A DNA stretch of 64,000 bases from NCBI GenBank assembly GCA_002790195.1, contig PFUR01000003.1, forward strand, positions 37,538 through 101,537. The letters run 5' to 3'. Of the stretch, positions 46,336-58,975 are shown piece by piece. The stretch comes from Flavobacteriales bacterium CG_4_9_14_3_um_filter_40_17 (GTDB lineage: Bacteria; Bacteroidota; Bacteroidia; Flavobacteriales; Flavobacteriaceae). The position numbers were made by a program, and so were the translations under genes. The notes beneath the pieces are model-generated. The model was not told the DNA's origin. It made no database searches and was given only the letters and a program-made list of their open reading frames with translations. The stretch's first letter is position 1, and each line of letters begins with the position of its first letter.

Positions 46336-49300
46336 TTAAAAAAATGCCCGCAACTGAACCGTACCGGTGTGAATGGTGTTGACGTTTTCCGATTTTCTTC
46401 CGAAATAGCTCAAATTAAAATCCAAAAAATCAGTTAGTTTTTTCTGCAAATTGAGTGTCCAGGTAAGATTGGTTCCGGGTTGCAAACCTTCAAGCATTTG
46501 AAAACCGACTGGGGAAAAACTGTCTCCCGTAAACTGATTGTTGAACAAGTTGAACTCGCCCGTTATCGATATTTTCTGTAGGTTGGAATAATTGAAGGAA
46601 ACACCTACACGTTGTTGGTCTAAAACCTCTCGTTGCCCCAAATCGTTTTCCTTGTTTTGATATTCATAAAACAAATCAAACTGGGCATTGCTGCTGAACA
46701 AGTATGAAATTTTGGGGTTGATTGTATAGCCGGTGATGTCAAAATTCCGAGTCGGGAAATTCTCCGATGTATTTTGCGTCCGGGAAGTGTTGGTCAGGAA
46801 ATTGGCTAACCAAAAGGTTTTGAATTTGTGGCTAAACTGAAACTGATGAGAAGTCAGCTCGCTCTCCTGTGTCCCGGTTGATAAAAAGTTTTGGCTTTGT
46901 GTTCGAATGAAAGTATAGGAAGTGGTGTAGCGTTGCAAACCGCGATTGAGAAAAAGACTGTTGCGCAGGTTCAAATTAAGCCCCAGCAAATCATTGCTGC
47001 CGGTGTCAAACGGGTTGAGATCCAATACATTTTCTTTTCGACTCACTTTGCGGTCTATTAAAAAGGAAATTTGGTTGTAAAAGTGGGAAAGTGTTTTCTT
47101 CAATCCGGTTTGATTACTCCACGGAAGCGGGTTGAGTGTCAAAATCTGGCTCCATTTGTTTTGATGCGTTTTGACAAAAATCCGATTGGGCAACAAAACG
47201 CGTACAAAATTGGCTTCATCCTGAAAAGCCGCCTGCTCAAACTCATCAAATTCTTGTAGGCCATTGTTGTTGAAATCAAACCAAGTGAAACTTCCCGTTC
47301 CGTCTTCCACCTTGACAAAGGTAAATTCTTGTTGCGGCTGTGTGCCGGAATTGGTTTCAAAAACCGTGTTGAGCTGCACTTTTTTGTCGAAAAAATATTG
47401 GTTGTAAAAAATCCGAGAGTTGAGCGATTGTTCGTCGCTGACATCCGGGTCGGTGTTGTCGAGGGTTCGATAATTCGCAAAAACCTGCAATTGGCTCGAA
47501 ACGTTATCGATTAATCTCGATCTCAGATAATACGTGTTAGAAGTGTTTACCTTTTTCAGCTGATTGTTTCGTAAACTGTCATTTACGCGGTATTTAAAAC
47601 CAACTTCCGTGAAAATTTTGGTACTGTCGCCCACGCCGGTGAAGACTTTATATTCGTTGAATTTTTGACTTTGAGAAGATAAAATTTGTGTTTGTGCATC
47701 TCGTTGTTTGTTGTCTTCCAAACGAACCTCATTGCCAAACCAATGTTTGTCCAAACTATAGGTAACTATGGAATTCAATCGCAAAAAAGTATTGTCCGAT
47801 TGGTCGGACGAAGCATCTAAATAGCTTCCGGCGGCGGCGATGTCCCACCGGTTGAAATGGAGGTTTGACTGAAGCACATGCCGGCTTCCGGAGTAGGAAT
47901 TCCCTTCAAAAGTGAGGTGTTGAAATTGATAGCCGATGCTTCCATTTTTGGGATGCGACCATTGAAGCCCGCCGCGGATAAAATTCTGCGTGCCACTGCT
48001 GTTATTCAGATTCCAATCTCGGTCGAACTCAATGTTGTACAGCCTTTCAATGGTGCGGAAATCTTTGTTGATGTAATCATAATCCAAAGTGCCTTCCAAA
48101 CTCCCCGTTTTCTTAAAAAATTGATGCTTGGCACGTATCGTCCCGGCAAAACCGGTGTTGTCTTCATCATCGAGAGATGAAAAAAGATTCAAATCGTTGT
48201 TGCTGAAGGCACTTTCAAACTGTACAGACGATTTATCGCTAAAATCATATTGACCGTAAAAAGTGGCAATCTGCAGTTGGATCGGGGCGACCAATTGAAT
48301 GACCGGTTCAAAATTGCCCTGCGGGACACTATTGACAGGCGTTACAAAAATAAAAATTCGCCCGACCACGTTGGTGTTGCTCAAAATATAATTACCTTGA
48401 TTTTGTCCAACTTGCGAAAATCGAACCGTGAACAGGGTATCGACCGGATTGTTTGAAAATTCAAAAGCTTCAAATCCATCGATGATTACTTTTTTGTATA
48501 AAATCTTGTTTTCAGAGAAAGATTCCGGCAGGGCCGATGGCGCAACCATTTTGGCAGAGTCGTCGCCGGCATCATTAAGTGTACCGATTTGTGCTTGTGA
48601 AAGATTCTGTTGGAGCGGCTGGTTTTTAGAGTCACTTTCGGAAAAAATCTTTCCGCCAAGTTTGAGTTTTCCGCGTTGATATTCGGCTCCGTCGAAAGTG
48701 ATAAATCGGGTAAAATTGCGATCGCTGAATTGGTATTCGATGGTTATCCGCATTTCTGAAGTGATGGGAAACAGTGAAGTAAAGGTGATTTCGCCGGCAT
48801 TGTAGTCGATGACATAATCGTTGTCTTCACCACGCTTGAGCGCAAGCCCGTTTACATAAACCGTCTCGCTTCCCGAAACAATAAGAACAAAGAGTTCGCC
48901 ATTCGGCCCTTGCAGTTTATAGGGCCCTTGGTTGCCTTCTCTGCCCTGTAGATTGCTGCGTGCAAACTGGCCTCGGACGATTGCCCCCGAACCGAAAAGC
49001 GTGGTTTTGCTCTTGGTTTTTTGAATGATTCCACCGGCATAAACCCCCTGTACTTTCTTCTGAAACCGGCTAAAATAAGACTCCGAATTAATCAAATTGA
49101 CATCGCCTGCCCGGATATTCCAATCTTTGGTAAACAGTTCGATAAACACCTCGTCAAACTCATCCAATCGTTGCGAAAAACCGTTTTCTTGGATAGGAAT
49201 GTTGTTGTCCTGAATTGACGCGCGCAGCGTTACCCCGTTGCCCAAATCCCCCGATATTTGCAAATCGAGTTCCGATTTCAACACCGAGTTTTGGTTGTTC

Positions 49301-56228: not shown

Positions 56229-56301
56229 GTAGTGAGTGATTTCAATTTGAATTGGGCGGCAAAAATACTACATTTTAACATTCTGGCAAATATTTTAACT
56301 T

Positions 56302-56340
56302 GCTTATCACATTCGTTTTCAAGATTTCATCCCATAAAAA
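56302..56340. repeat. direct repeat, left copy
   Basis: A 39-base sequence starting GCTTATCACATTCG and ending TTTCATCCCATAAAAA. It matches 58908-58946 at 36 of 39 positions. It is followed at once by CCCCGGGG, possibly the remains of a hairpin. It bounds the creD cassette on its left. Confidence 0.8.
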
Positions 56341-56456
56341 CCCCGGGGCACGTAATGGCTGAAGATTCATAATCTCAACCCGCTGGGTGAAATTAATAAA
56401 ATTCCGACAAGGACGGCTGCCAATCTTGAATGGTTACGACTTTCCGCTAAATAAAT

Positions 56457-56487
56457 TTGGTGTTTATAAGAGAATTAATTTACTTTG
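56457..56487 (+). promoter_or_regulatory. promoter of the cassette
   Basis: TTG (56457-56459), a 20-base spacer and TTACTTTG (56480-56487). The -7 box is one base from TAnnTTTG. The predicted start is about 12 bases before the ATG at 56507. Confidence 0.6.
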
Positions 56488-56504
56488 CATTTCAAAGTAC
56501 TTTA
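56482..56504 (+). promoter_or_regulatory. candidate operator, copy 1
   Basis: ACTTTG-CATTT-CAAAGTACTTTA. The inverted halves overlap the -7 box of the cassette promoter and end two bases before the ATG. The same pattern recurs before creD at 57506-57528. Confidence 0.6.
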
Positions 56505-56506
56505 TC

Positions 56507-57115
56507 ATGAATAAAAATGAACACCTAAAAAACTTAAGCGAAATCAAGCAGCTCATGGATCGCTCATCCAGATTTATTTCTTTGAGCGGGCTTTCGGGCA
56601 TAATTGCAGGGGTTTATGCCATCATTGGAGCTGCTCTGGCCTATTTTTTTACTTTCCCAAAGCCGGGAAGCTATCTTGAAACAAACAGTCGGAATTTCAA
56701 AATATCAGTTTTTATAATATTATTTGTCGCCGTTTTAAGTGTTGTCACCGCTTTTTTTCTCTCCTCAAGGAAAGCAAAAAAAAATAACGAAAAAATTTGG
56801 GATGCCACAACAAAGCGTCTGTTAACCAATTTTCTTATTCCATTGTTAACAGGCGGTATCTATATTATTCTCAATTTAAACAATCAGCATTATGGATTAA
56901 CCGCTTCTTTAATGCTCATTTTCTATGGGCTGTCTTTAGTTAATGCTTCCAAATACACCGTGGGTGATATAAAATACTTGGGAATTGCCGAAATTGCCGT
57001 GGGGCTTCTGTGTGCTGCACTTCCGGGATATGGATTGTGGTTTTGGATTTTGGGGTTCGGTTTCTTTCATATTATCTATGGAAGTTTGATGTATCTGGAT
57101 GAGAAAAAATCTTAG
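56507..57115 (+). CDS. six-TM hypothetical membrane protein
   Basis: A 202-residue inner-membrane protein of unknown function. The start is ATG 56507 (MNKNEHLKNLSEIKQLMDRS); the frame is open to 56387, but that stretch overlaps the promoter. A short polar N-terminus precedes six hydrophobic segments: LSGIIAGVYAIIGAALAYFF, ISVFIILFVAVLSVVTAFFL, FLIPLLTGGIYIILNL, ASLMLIFYGLSLVNA, YLGIAEIAVGLLCAAL and WFWILGFGFFHIIYGSL. The next gene starts two bases after the stop and encodes a winged-helix regulator. It is likely controlled by it and may sense or respond to the same signal as CreD. Confidence 0.75.
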   Translation: MNKNEHLKNLSEIKQLMDRSSRFISLSGLSGIIAGVYAIIGAALAYFFTFPKPGSYLETNSRNFKISVFIILFVAVLSVVTAFFLSSRKAKKNNEKIWDATTKRLLTNFLIPLLTGGIYIILNLNNQHYGLTASLMLIFYGLSLVNASKYTVGDIKYLGIAEIAVGLLCAALPGYGLWFWILGFGFFHIIYGSLMYLDEKKS

Positions 57116-57117
57116 CT

Positions 57118-57405
57118 GTGGGATTAATCGATAATATTAATAAACTATTCGACCACCGAATTCGGCTGGGTATTATGTCCATCTTGGTTGTCAACGAAGA
57201 TGCAGATTTCAACCGCCTAAAGGAACTGCTGAATGTGACCGATGGCAATTTGGCAAGCCACCTGAAATCTTTGGAGTCATCGAAGTATATTGAAGTTGAA
57301 AAATCCTTTATCGACAGAAAACCAAACACGCGCTATTCTGTCACGAAATTGGGTAAAGCTGAATTTAAAAAACACCTTGAAGCACTCGAAAAATTAATTA
57401 AATAA
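57118..57405 (+). CDS. winged-helix transcriptional regulator
   Basis: A 95-residue DNA-binding protein of the winged helix-turn-helix type (PadR/ArsR/MarR-like, HTH_27). The start is a GTG two bases after the membrane gene's stop (MGLIDNINKLFDHRIRLGIM). The recognition helix region is FNRLKELLNVTDGNLASHLK (about residues 31-50). The wing is YIEVEKSFIDRKPNTRYSVT. C-terminal LGKAEFKKHLEALEKLIK forms a helix likely used for dimerisation. No ligand domain is present. Located between the membrane gene and creD, with matching operator-like sites before each, it is the probable repressor of both. Confidence 0.88.
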   Translation: MGLIDNINKLFDHRIRLGIMSILVVNEDADFNRLKELLNVTDGNLASHLKSLESSKYIEVEKSFIDRKPNTRYSVTKLGKAEFKKHLEALEKLIK

Positions 57406-57505
57406 ACAGCCTTCCGAACATAGACAAGCCATGTATCTCACTGAAACAAAATCTTGAATCACTGAAACAGCTATAAATAAGCGCTAAATATTTTTTTATT
57501 AATCA

Positions 57506-57528
57506 ACTTTGAATAACAAAGTACTTTA
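57506..57528 (+). promoter_or_regulatory. candidate operator, copy 2, before creD
   Basis: ACTTTG-AATAA-CAAAGTACTTTA, 12 bases before the creD ATG. It is identical to the copy at 56482-56504 except in the 5-base spacer. Its left half overlaps CAACTTTG, a -7-like box one base from TAnnTTTG. Confidence 0.65.
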
Positions 57529-57539
57529 AATCTAACATT

Positions 57540-58883
57540 ATGGAAGAAAAAACTGTAACATTCGCAAATTGGTTGCGCAATTCTATTACTGCGAAAATGC
57601 TCGTGGTCGGGTTTCTGTTGGTAGTATTGCTCATTCCGCTACTTTTTGTACAAAACCTGATAGAAGAAAGAGGCCACCGGCAAAAGGAAGTCGTCCATGA
57701 AATAAATAAAAAATGGGGAAACGAAATTGTGCTTTCAGGCCCCATTTTAAAAATCCCTTACAAAGCTTTCAAGGAAAACAGGGTTTATAGTCCGGACGGG
57801 AAATACACCACCACCCAGGAAACCGCAATAGAAGTGGCCTATTTTTTCCCCGAATTCTTAGAAATAGGGGCAACTGCCAACACTAAACCCCTGCACCGGA
57901 GTATTTTTGAATCGGTCGTTTTTAATGCAGACATCCGTGTAAAAGGTAGTTTTCCGACCATAGACTTTTCCGAAACGGACATTCTTCCTGAAAACGTGCT
58001 GTGGGACAAAGCCATACTCTTAATAAAAACCTCCAACCTGAAGGGAATCAGGAATACTTTGACAATAAATTTTAATTCGACTTCATTCAATATGTTGCCA
58101 AAATACGCAGATGAATACCTCAATACTTTAGAAAGCAAACCTATTTTGGATTTTTCAAAAAACAGCTCCTCGCCTACTTCATTTTCATTCAATATGAATG
58201 TTAACGGCAGCGATGCAATAAAATTTATTCCTATCGGTAAAGAAACTACTGCTCACATGAAGAGCAATTGGCACTCACCCAGTTTTATTGGTGAATTTTT
58301 ACCGGAAGACGGCTCTCGCAAAATCGCTCAAAGCGGATTTAAAGCATCGTGGAAAATCCTACAAATTAACCGCCAATTTGAACAATCGTTTTTTGGCAAA
58401 CTTCCCGATTTGACAAAATTTGCTTTCGGCACGCAGCTGATTGTAACGGTTGACGAATATCAAAAAAGTGAACGCGCAGCAAAATACGGGTTCTTGGTTA
58501 TCGGGTTGACCTTGCTTGTCTTCTTCCTCATACAACTCATCAGCAAAGTGTATATACATCCGTTTCAGTATGTCATGGTCGGCTTGGCCTTGGTTATGTT
58601 TTACACTTTGCTTATTTCAATTTCGGAACACAGTTCGTTTTTTAAAGCATACTTCATCGCGGCTCTGTCGGTTTTAGGCCTCATTACATTGTACTCGAGG
58701 AGTATTCTGAAAGGTGTAAAATTTCCATTGCTTATTTGTTTTTCATTGGCAACGCTTTACAGCTATATTTTTATCATCATCCAATTGGAAAATTATGCAC
58801 TTATAACAGGCAGTATCGGTTTATTTGTAATACTGGCTATCATCATGTTTGTTTCAAAAAAGATTGACTGGCAGAAAGATTAA
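57540..58883 (+). CDS. creD: CreD family inner-membrane protein
   Basis: A 447-residue membrane protein of the CreD family (cell envelope integrity). The first TM is at about residues 16-37 (MLVVGFLLVVLLIPLLFVQN). A large periplasmic domain follows (residues 38-310), including GNEIVLSGPILKIPYKAF and the conserved WHSPSFIGEFLPEDGSRKI. About five C-terminal TM helices follow (LVIGLTLLVFFLIQLISKVY, YVMVGLALVMFYTLLISISE). In E. coli creD is activated by the CreBC two-component system; here no sensor kinase is adjacent, and a winged-helix protein takes that place. A terminator follows. Confidence 0.93.
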   Translation: MEEKTVTFANWLRNSITAKMLVVGFLLVVLLIPLLFVQNLIEERGHRQKEVVHEINKKWGNEIVLSGPILKIPYKAFKENRVYSPDGKYTTTQETAIEVAYFFPEFLEIGATANTKPLHRSIFESVVFNADIRVKGSFPTIDFSETDILPENVLWDKAILLIKTSNLKGIRNTLTINFNSTSFNMLPKYADEYLNTLESKPILDFSKNSSSPTSFSFNMNVNGSDAIKFIPIGKETTAHMKSNWHSPSFIGEFLPEDGSRKIAQSGFKASWKILQINRQFEQSFFGKLPDLTKFAFGTQLIVTVDEYQKSERAAKYGFLVIGLTLLVFFLIQLISKVYIHPFQYVMVGLALVMFYTLLISISEHSSFFKAYFIAALSVLGLITLYSRSILKGVKFPLLICFSLATLYSYIFIIIQLENYALITGSIGLFVILAIIMFVSKKIDWQKD

Positions 58884-58907
58884 GCACAATTGGGGGCAGA
58901 TTAGCCC

Positions 58908-58946
58908 GCTTGTCACATTCGCTTTCAAGATTTCATTCCATAAAAA
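58908..58946. repeat. direct repeat, right copy
   Basis: A 39-base sequence starting GCTTGTCACATTCG and ending TTTCATTCCATAAAAA, 36 of 39 identical to 56302-56340. It bounds the creD cassette on its right and runs into the terminator hairpin. Confidence 0.8.
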
Positions 58947-58975
58947 ACCGGAGGAAAAACTCCGGTTCATTTTTA
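58946..58975. terminator. bidirectional terminator between creD and the GDSL gene
   Basis: The arms AACCGGAG (58946-58953) and CTCCGGTT (58960-58967) enclose GAAAAA, with A and T runs either side. It suits creD on the plus strand and the GDSL gene on the minus strand. Confidence 0.75.

Follow-up and report, generated by a model that had tools for sequence, protein, structure and literature searches.

A 95-residue winged-helix protein of the HTH_34 family appears to repress both its own operon and the neighbouring creD gene through a shared operator, a reading of the sequence comparisons to which we assign a probability of roughly 0.78. The proposal concerns a cassette in a DNA window of 64,000 nucleotides (the whole stretch that was analysed), which belongs to the 2.69 Mb draft genome, in 87 contigs, of Flavobacteriales bacterium CG_4_9_14_3_um_filter_40_17. 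In this cassette a first site, a membrane protein gene, the winged-helix gene, a second site and creD follow one another on the plus strand (Table 1). The GTG start codon of the regulator gene lies 2 nt past the stop codon of the membrane protein gene, and the two genes are a two-gene operon. According to our proposal, a homodimer of the HTH_34 protein would bind ACTTTG-N5-CAAAGT, helped by a directly adjoining ACTTT half-site, both in front of the operon that encodes the membrane protein and the winged helix and in front of creD. The bound regulator would block RNA polymerase at the promoter, and its release would free both transcripts together. The trigger might be a membrane or envelope signal relayed by the co-transcribed membrane protein, although this is a guess. 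The sites, their specificity, their Bacteroidota-wide linkage to the regulator and their position on predicted promoters can be read directly from the DNA, and from these we infer dimerisation, binding and repression.

Table 1. Features of the regulator-creD cassette, in positions of the window
Feature	Position	Strand	Details
-33-like TTTG of the first promoter	56456..56459	+	from sequence; ends 20 nt upstream of the -7-like box
-7-like box TTACTTTG	56480..56487	+	7/8 to TAnnTTTG; overlaps left half-site 1
Operator 1 (putative)	56482..56503	+	half-sites ACTTTG 56482-56487, CAAAGT 56493-56498, ACTTT 56499-56503
Membrane protein gene	56507..57115	+	202 aa; ORF; candidate partner or sensor
HTH_34 winged-helix regulator gene	57118..57405	+	95 aa; GTG start; PF13601
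Codons of helix 42-54 (DGNLASHLKSLES)	57241..57279	+	secondary structure of the model
T7 tract	57491..57497	+	upstream of operator 2; promoter without a -33 TTTG
Operator 2 (putative), before creD	57506..57527	+	pattern match; comparative loci
creD	57540..58883	+	447 aa; predicted inner-membrane protein; candidate target gene

The pattern ACTTTG-N5-CAAAGTACTTTA occurs on the plus strand at 56482-56504 (site 1, ACTTTGCATTTCAAAGTACTTTA) and at 57506-57528 (site 2, ACTTTGAATAACAAAGTACTTTA). Direct reading and a pattern search bore out an earlier, sequence-only reading of this DNA, according to which the two sites are identical apart from their 5-base spacer, each lies just before an ATG and a winged-helix gene lies between them; the membrane protein gene that precedes the latter had not been named. 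Site 1 ends 2 nt upstream of the ATG at 56507, and site 2 ends 11 nt upstream of the ATG at 57540. When up to three mismatches were allowed, the 23-base pattern had four matches in the window, namely the two sites themselves and their reverse-strand counterparts (2 and 3 mismatches), whereas the mean of shuffled sequences was 0.19 and none of 100 shuffles reached four. The exact 17-base palindrome was found at only these two places in the whole draft genome. Looser searches of the genome gave numbers at the level of chance: palindromes with up to one mismatch numbered 26 on the forward strand, the two exact ones included, against 27 for the reversed control, and the 22-base pattern with up to three mismatches gave 12 forward and 16 reverse matches against 12 and 22 for its control. 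The regulator is the sole HTH_34 protein of the genome to exceed the cut-off, one more falling just under it with 26.5 bits. With one such protein and two exact sites in the genome, one regulator thus faces two sites.

The regulator matched HTH_34 (PF13601) with an E-value of 6.7e-30 and 103.1-103.5 bits, the cut-off being 27. The only other Pfam match at E<=0.001 was HxlR, just under its own cut-off, and no match to the PadR profile was obtained at this threshold. Its nearest named relative was found in the MAG HGW-Bacteroidetes-13 (90% identity), followed by a Flavobacteriaceae MAG and Aequorivita. The modelled regulator (pLDDT 92.2) adopts a winged helix-turn-helix fold with long first and last helices, being composed of helices 3-25, 31-38 and 42-54, strands 58-65 and 68-75, and helix 77-94. 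Residues D42, G43, N44, L45, S47, H48, L52 and E53 were invariant in 39 aligned regulator sequences, and on the model helix 42-54 is likely the DNA recognition helix. Winged-helix proteins of such a fold are usually dimers, which would fit a palindromic site. The best fold match in the PDB was 1ub9, followed by PadR-like proteins. This entry, PH1061 of Pyrococcus horikoshii, is also the only protein of solved structure to which the regulator is related in sequence at E<=0.001 (profile E 3.6e-14), but it is archaeal and titled merely as a regulator homologue, and we know of no operator for it.

For the 202-aa membrane protein, neither a Pfam nor an NCBIfam family was found at E<=0.001. Its model has seven predicted helices with a mean pLDDT of 82 (low confidence in the first 30 residues) and gave no PDB fold match at E<=0.001. 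Judging from gene order, we would guess that this protein is a sensor. CreD itself was recognised by a full-length match to PF06123 (E 8.1e-145, 483 bits, profile positions 2-428 of 428) and by NCBIfam NF008712 (E 3.4e-140). As a separate observation, the whole cassette is bracketed by a 54-nt direct repeat with 83% identity between its copies at 56295-56348 and 58901-58954. A 38-nt pattern taken from this repeat had just the two bracketing copies in the genome with up to three mismatches, and the copy on the right leads into an intrinsic-terminator-like CCGGAG...CTCCGG. A flanking repeat pair (76%) is present in one relative (L231) as well. Could the repeat be an insertion scar, or rather a shared terminator region?

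We surveyed 395 Bacteroidota genomes with an exact 21-base pattern and its reversed control. The pattern had 142 matches in 80 genomes, the control a single one. The sequence-only reading had supposed that relatives may share the motif, which they do, and had raised the possibility of a random scatter, at odds with this control and with the two exact copies in its own genome. A close homologue of the regulator, defined by a score of at least 119 bits, was present in 127 of the 395 genomes. It was found in 78 of the 80 site-bearing genomes, and only two of the 268 genomes without it had the site, both (G071 and G270) with weaker homologues; as the surveyed genomes share ancestry, Fisher values for such counts overstate certainty and are not true probabilities. 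There were 49 genomes with a close homologue and without the exact pattern, and all 20 that were sampled had a 15-16/17 variant beside the regulator gene. In addition, named regulator loci were fetched by protein alone, giving the best 80 of at least 589, nearly all of them Flavobacteriaceae by title. Two sites of at least 15/17 were present in 76 of these best 80 loci and one site in the other four, while a permuted pattern reached 14/17 in 0-2 of 80 loci (1.2 kb, one strand). Only 45 of the best 80 of at least 589 loci contained creD, and of the 35 loci lacking it 32 had two sites. Since the presence of the site tracks the regulator, the site belongs to the regulator.

The same question can be approached from creD. 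Here, as in the sets of 218 regulator loci and 159 sites considered below, duplicate entries of one locus were merged. Among 98 distinct creD loci, a site of at least 14/17 was present in 52 of the 53 with the regulator in the fetched upstream stretch, as opposed to 4 of the 45 without a regulator nearby; for 45 of the 98 the upstream stretch was shorter than 2 kb, and 19 of these belong to the 45 without a nearby regulator. Absence of the motif from orthologous creD operons, the other outcome that would have spoken against the sequence-only reading, was thus not observed either. Regarding the four sites without a nearby regulator, the genomes G344 (regulator about 5 kb off), G426 and G130 have the regulator further off; the fourth, G396, has a 14/17 site in a genome without one further off. 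The single miss among the 53 (L048) has a short flank, and a longer stretch (L190) has a 17/17 site before the operon and none between the regulator and creD. Where a genome had creD and a close homologue of the regulator at separate places, 8 of 11 creD loci were without a site in the approximately 1.4 kb of upstream sequence seen, and 3 had one. Furthermore, sites far from the regulator, on another contig or at hundreds of kb, were found in 26 of the 127 genomes with a homologue against 1 of the 268 others, as sorted by eye and with some doubt left by draft contig ends. This comparison is independent of close gene linkage, and no regulator gene was found in the fetched stretches around the 32 far sites. 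Together these findings strongly support the view, drawn from sequence comparison, that the site would be a shared operator read by the winged helix. The earlier idea of a regulator-linked operator is supported across the phylum, but the site is not tied to creD.

The linkage has its exceptions. A site of at least 14/17 was missing downstream in 30 and upstream in 20 of 218 distinct regulator loci, a set in which some of the fetched stretches end too early to cover the searched range and which includes loci fetched for the exact site, so that the percentages are not independent. When 20 divergent homologue loci, fetched by protein like the 20 sampled above, were inspected, 17 had a site of at least 14/17, with L331 and L332 having theirs at a distance of about 1.8 kb and solely on the opposite strand. 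Locus L348 had a 13/17 site, and no site of at least 13/17 was found at L349 and L350. The genome of L350 has another HTH_34 gene, which does have sites; the protein of L350, the second of the two, carries the helix TAGNLSVQIDKL instead of TDGNLASHLKAL, and such an altered recognition helix fits a different target. L349, on the other hand, keeps the usual helix TDGNLASHLK and yet has no site, which makes it a counterexample. Some far relatives of the regulator were seen to keep recognisable sites, namely L194 in G270 (17/17, upstream) and L136 in G395 (15 and 14/17), so that the operator may extend to distant branches of the phylum.

Column counts were made on 396 sites of at least 13/17 from the 218 regulator loci and carry the same dependence. 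They showed that the full unit consists of ACTTTG-N5-CAAAGT and a directly adjoining ACTTT. The palindrome described in the sequence-only reading was present, but the true unit has three half-sites, one more than the palindrome, and the second and third half-sites make a smaller palindrome, AAAGTACTTT. The arms are near-invariant, with the inner-edge G and C as their most variable positions (G present in 374 and C in 351 of 396). Conservation of the third half-site, base by base, amounts to 348, 385, 385, 384 and 385 of the 396 sites. The spacer is constrained as well, its second base being A in 349 and its fourth base T in 324 of 396. The inner G..C pair was concordant in 346 of 396 sites against 332.6 expected and discordant in 50; in 8 sites it was changed on both sides to A..T or T..A. 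This covariation would weakly back a dimer symmetry. As a proof of the palindrome it was dropped, because the arms vary too little and only one pair varies much.

To locate the sites relative to promoters, we used the TAnnTTTG box at -12 to -5, a consensus from Flavobacterium psychrophilum described in the available main text of PMC9723704, in which AAAGT and CTTTG are absent. With the box in that position, transcription of the operon is predicted to start at about 56492, and site 1 spans about -10 to +12. In the corresponding membrane-gene promoters of relatives, the -7 box takes its TTTG from the left half-site. At the -33 spacing TTTG stands in 30 of 54 of these promoters, compared with 2 of 54 for a control offset; for TTG the numbers are 44 and 6. 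Site 1 lies over both a near-canonical -7 box and the predicted start, which makes autorepression the most fitting interpretation. The suggestion that the left half coincides with the TTTG of the -7 box was well founded for site 1, which has the -33 TTTG in addition, but weaker for site 2. The box at the latter, CAACTTTG, also agrees with TAnnTTTG in 7 of 8 positions, the A being in place and the first T replaced by C, and the creD promoter of the window is without TTTG at -33. Blocking of a canonical promoter is consequently less clear at creD. Among relatives, none of 24 creD promoters has TTTG at -33. A T6 tract is located between -17 and -7 of the site in 20 of 24 creD promoters and in 3 of 54 membrane-gene promoters. 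Among the other 81 sites, 6 of which have no ORF behind them, 46 have the tract as well; for background TAnnTTTG places the count was 10 of 913. The T6-T7 tract of creD-type promoters is displaced from the usual -33 place by about one helical turn in the downstream direction. It might mark a second promoter type or, alternatively, the site of another protein.

The existence of two promoter types, as distinguished by the -33 TTTG (30/54 membrane-gene versus 0/24 creD) and the T6 tract (3/54 versus 20/24), could conceivably mean that the regulator activates, or that it acts in both ways depending on the gene, the T-tract creD-type promoters then being activated. We regard this as unlikely, since both sites sit on the -7 position and the predicted start, where repression is usual and activation unusual, and the palindrome is the same at both. 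It is less probable still that the motif is an alternative sigma factor element or a special promoter class instead of an operator. While its cover of the -7 position and its rather fixed place before start codons would suit such an element, its presence tracks the winged-helix gene, the palindrome with its third half-site extends past the predicted start, and the upstream elements differ between the promoters. Control of translation by an RNA hairpin, ACUUUG-N5-CAAAGU, before the start codon seems very improbable. The sites do fold, if weakly, at -4.5 and -4.8 kcal/mol (z -2.5 and -1.8), but any short-spacer DNA palindrome would do so. Moreover, with the predicted start inside the site the left half would not be transcribed, the arms vary too little to show pairing, and neither the third half-site nor the association with a DNA-binding protein would be accounted for. 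Finally, although the genome itself has just two copies, it is practically out of the question that the site is a chance duplication or goes with creD only, in view of the 80 of 395 genomes against one control match, the 41 of 45 creD loci without nearby regulator that have no site, and the 35 of the best 80 of at least 589 regulator loci that lack creD, 32 of them with two sites.

Repression by the HTH_34 protein would extend to other genes in relatives. Each of the best 80 of at least 589 named loci has its first site in front of the operon's membrane gene. Of the 76 second sites in the same best 80 of at least 589, 30 lie before a 150-aa Coq4-like protein, 25 before creD and 15 before a DUF4153 protein; the rest precede a small membrane protein (1), a DUF1361 protein (1) and two unknown proteins or have no ORF behind them (2). 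The Coq4-like protein (L080, L108, L123), for which one representative gave a weak Coq4 match (E 8.8e-6), is thereby the one most often encoded first after the second site in this set of the best 80 of at least 589 named loci. When all 159 sites were considered, a set whose percentages are not independent because it includes loci fetched for the exact site, the 153 proteins downstream formed 18 clusters. The ten cluster representatives that were scanned include DUF4153, C92 amidase, DUF1361, DUF2809, TPR, VIT and unnamed membrane proteins. A far operator copy was observed before a C92 amidase of the YaeF/YiiX type in six g55 genomes (L071, L151, L152, L157, L159 and L162). Given these varied genes behind the sites, creD is one lineage-dependent member.

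CreBC-type control of creD was considered for the window and rejected. The CreB-type repeat is TTCACN6TTCAC, and six copies with up to one mismatch were found in the window against 5.73 expected, none of them beyond position 48789 and hence none close to the cassette. As described in the available part of PMC4689548, CreBC of gammaproteobacteria is a two-component system controlling the inner-membrane protein CreD, which is needed for envelope integrity in Stenotrophomonas. The controlled protein is the same, but the two-component system contrasts with the winged helix here. Closer in its way of working are LftR, LstR and LltR of Listeria, which the available part of PMC6624303 presents as autoregulated PadR-type repressors of their own gene and of transmembrane proteins, assumed to answer envelope-acting compounds. 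Like these, the present regulator is a small stand-alone winged helix with a PadR-like predicted fold; unlike these, it is an HTH_34 protein by Pfam, belongs to another phylum, has other target genes and is known from sequence. The HAAS-PadR dyad, put forward as a substitute for two-component systems under envelope stress (available part of PMC11237479, with no occurrence of CreD in its main text), likewise pairs a membrane protein with a stand-alone winged helix, but the winged helix here is from another Pfam family. At E<=1 the window's membrane protein has 8 families listed, and HAAS/DUF1700 is not one of them; nor was HAAS among the matches listed (25 of 55 families) for 40 homologues of the membrane protein. 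No description of the circuit or the operator was found among the matches listed from the open-licence literature. We therefore consider the module to be real, conserved and apparently undescribed, with a way of working that, by analogy, would be that of small autoregulated membrane-coupled repressors.

The paired layout recurs in many relatives and is probably an unstudied switch for cell-envelope genes. A wider reading, which we put forward tentatively and hold to be more doubtful than the switch itself, is that of an old, phylum-wide envelope-stress circuit without kinase or ECF sigma factor. The seven-helix sensor would hold or free the winged helix, which in turn would coordinate a regulon of uncharacterised membrane proteins through the three-half-site operator at two promoter types that are marked by a -33 box and by a T tract, respectively. 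This regulon might comprise CreD, DUF4153, the Coq4-like protein, C92 amidase, DUF1361, DUF2809 and unnamed small membrane proteins. The strong conservation of the operator makes it possible to deduce the regulon from genome sequence. The regulator, the operator and the list of targets thus offer a sequence handle on conserved Bacteroidota membrane proteins, mostly of unknown function, including CreD, the control of which is, in the available part of the literature cited above, otherwise described only via CreBC in gammaproteobacteria.
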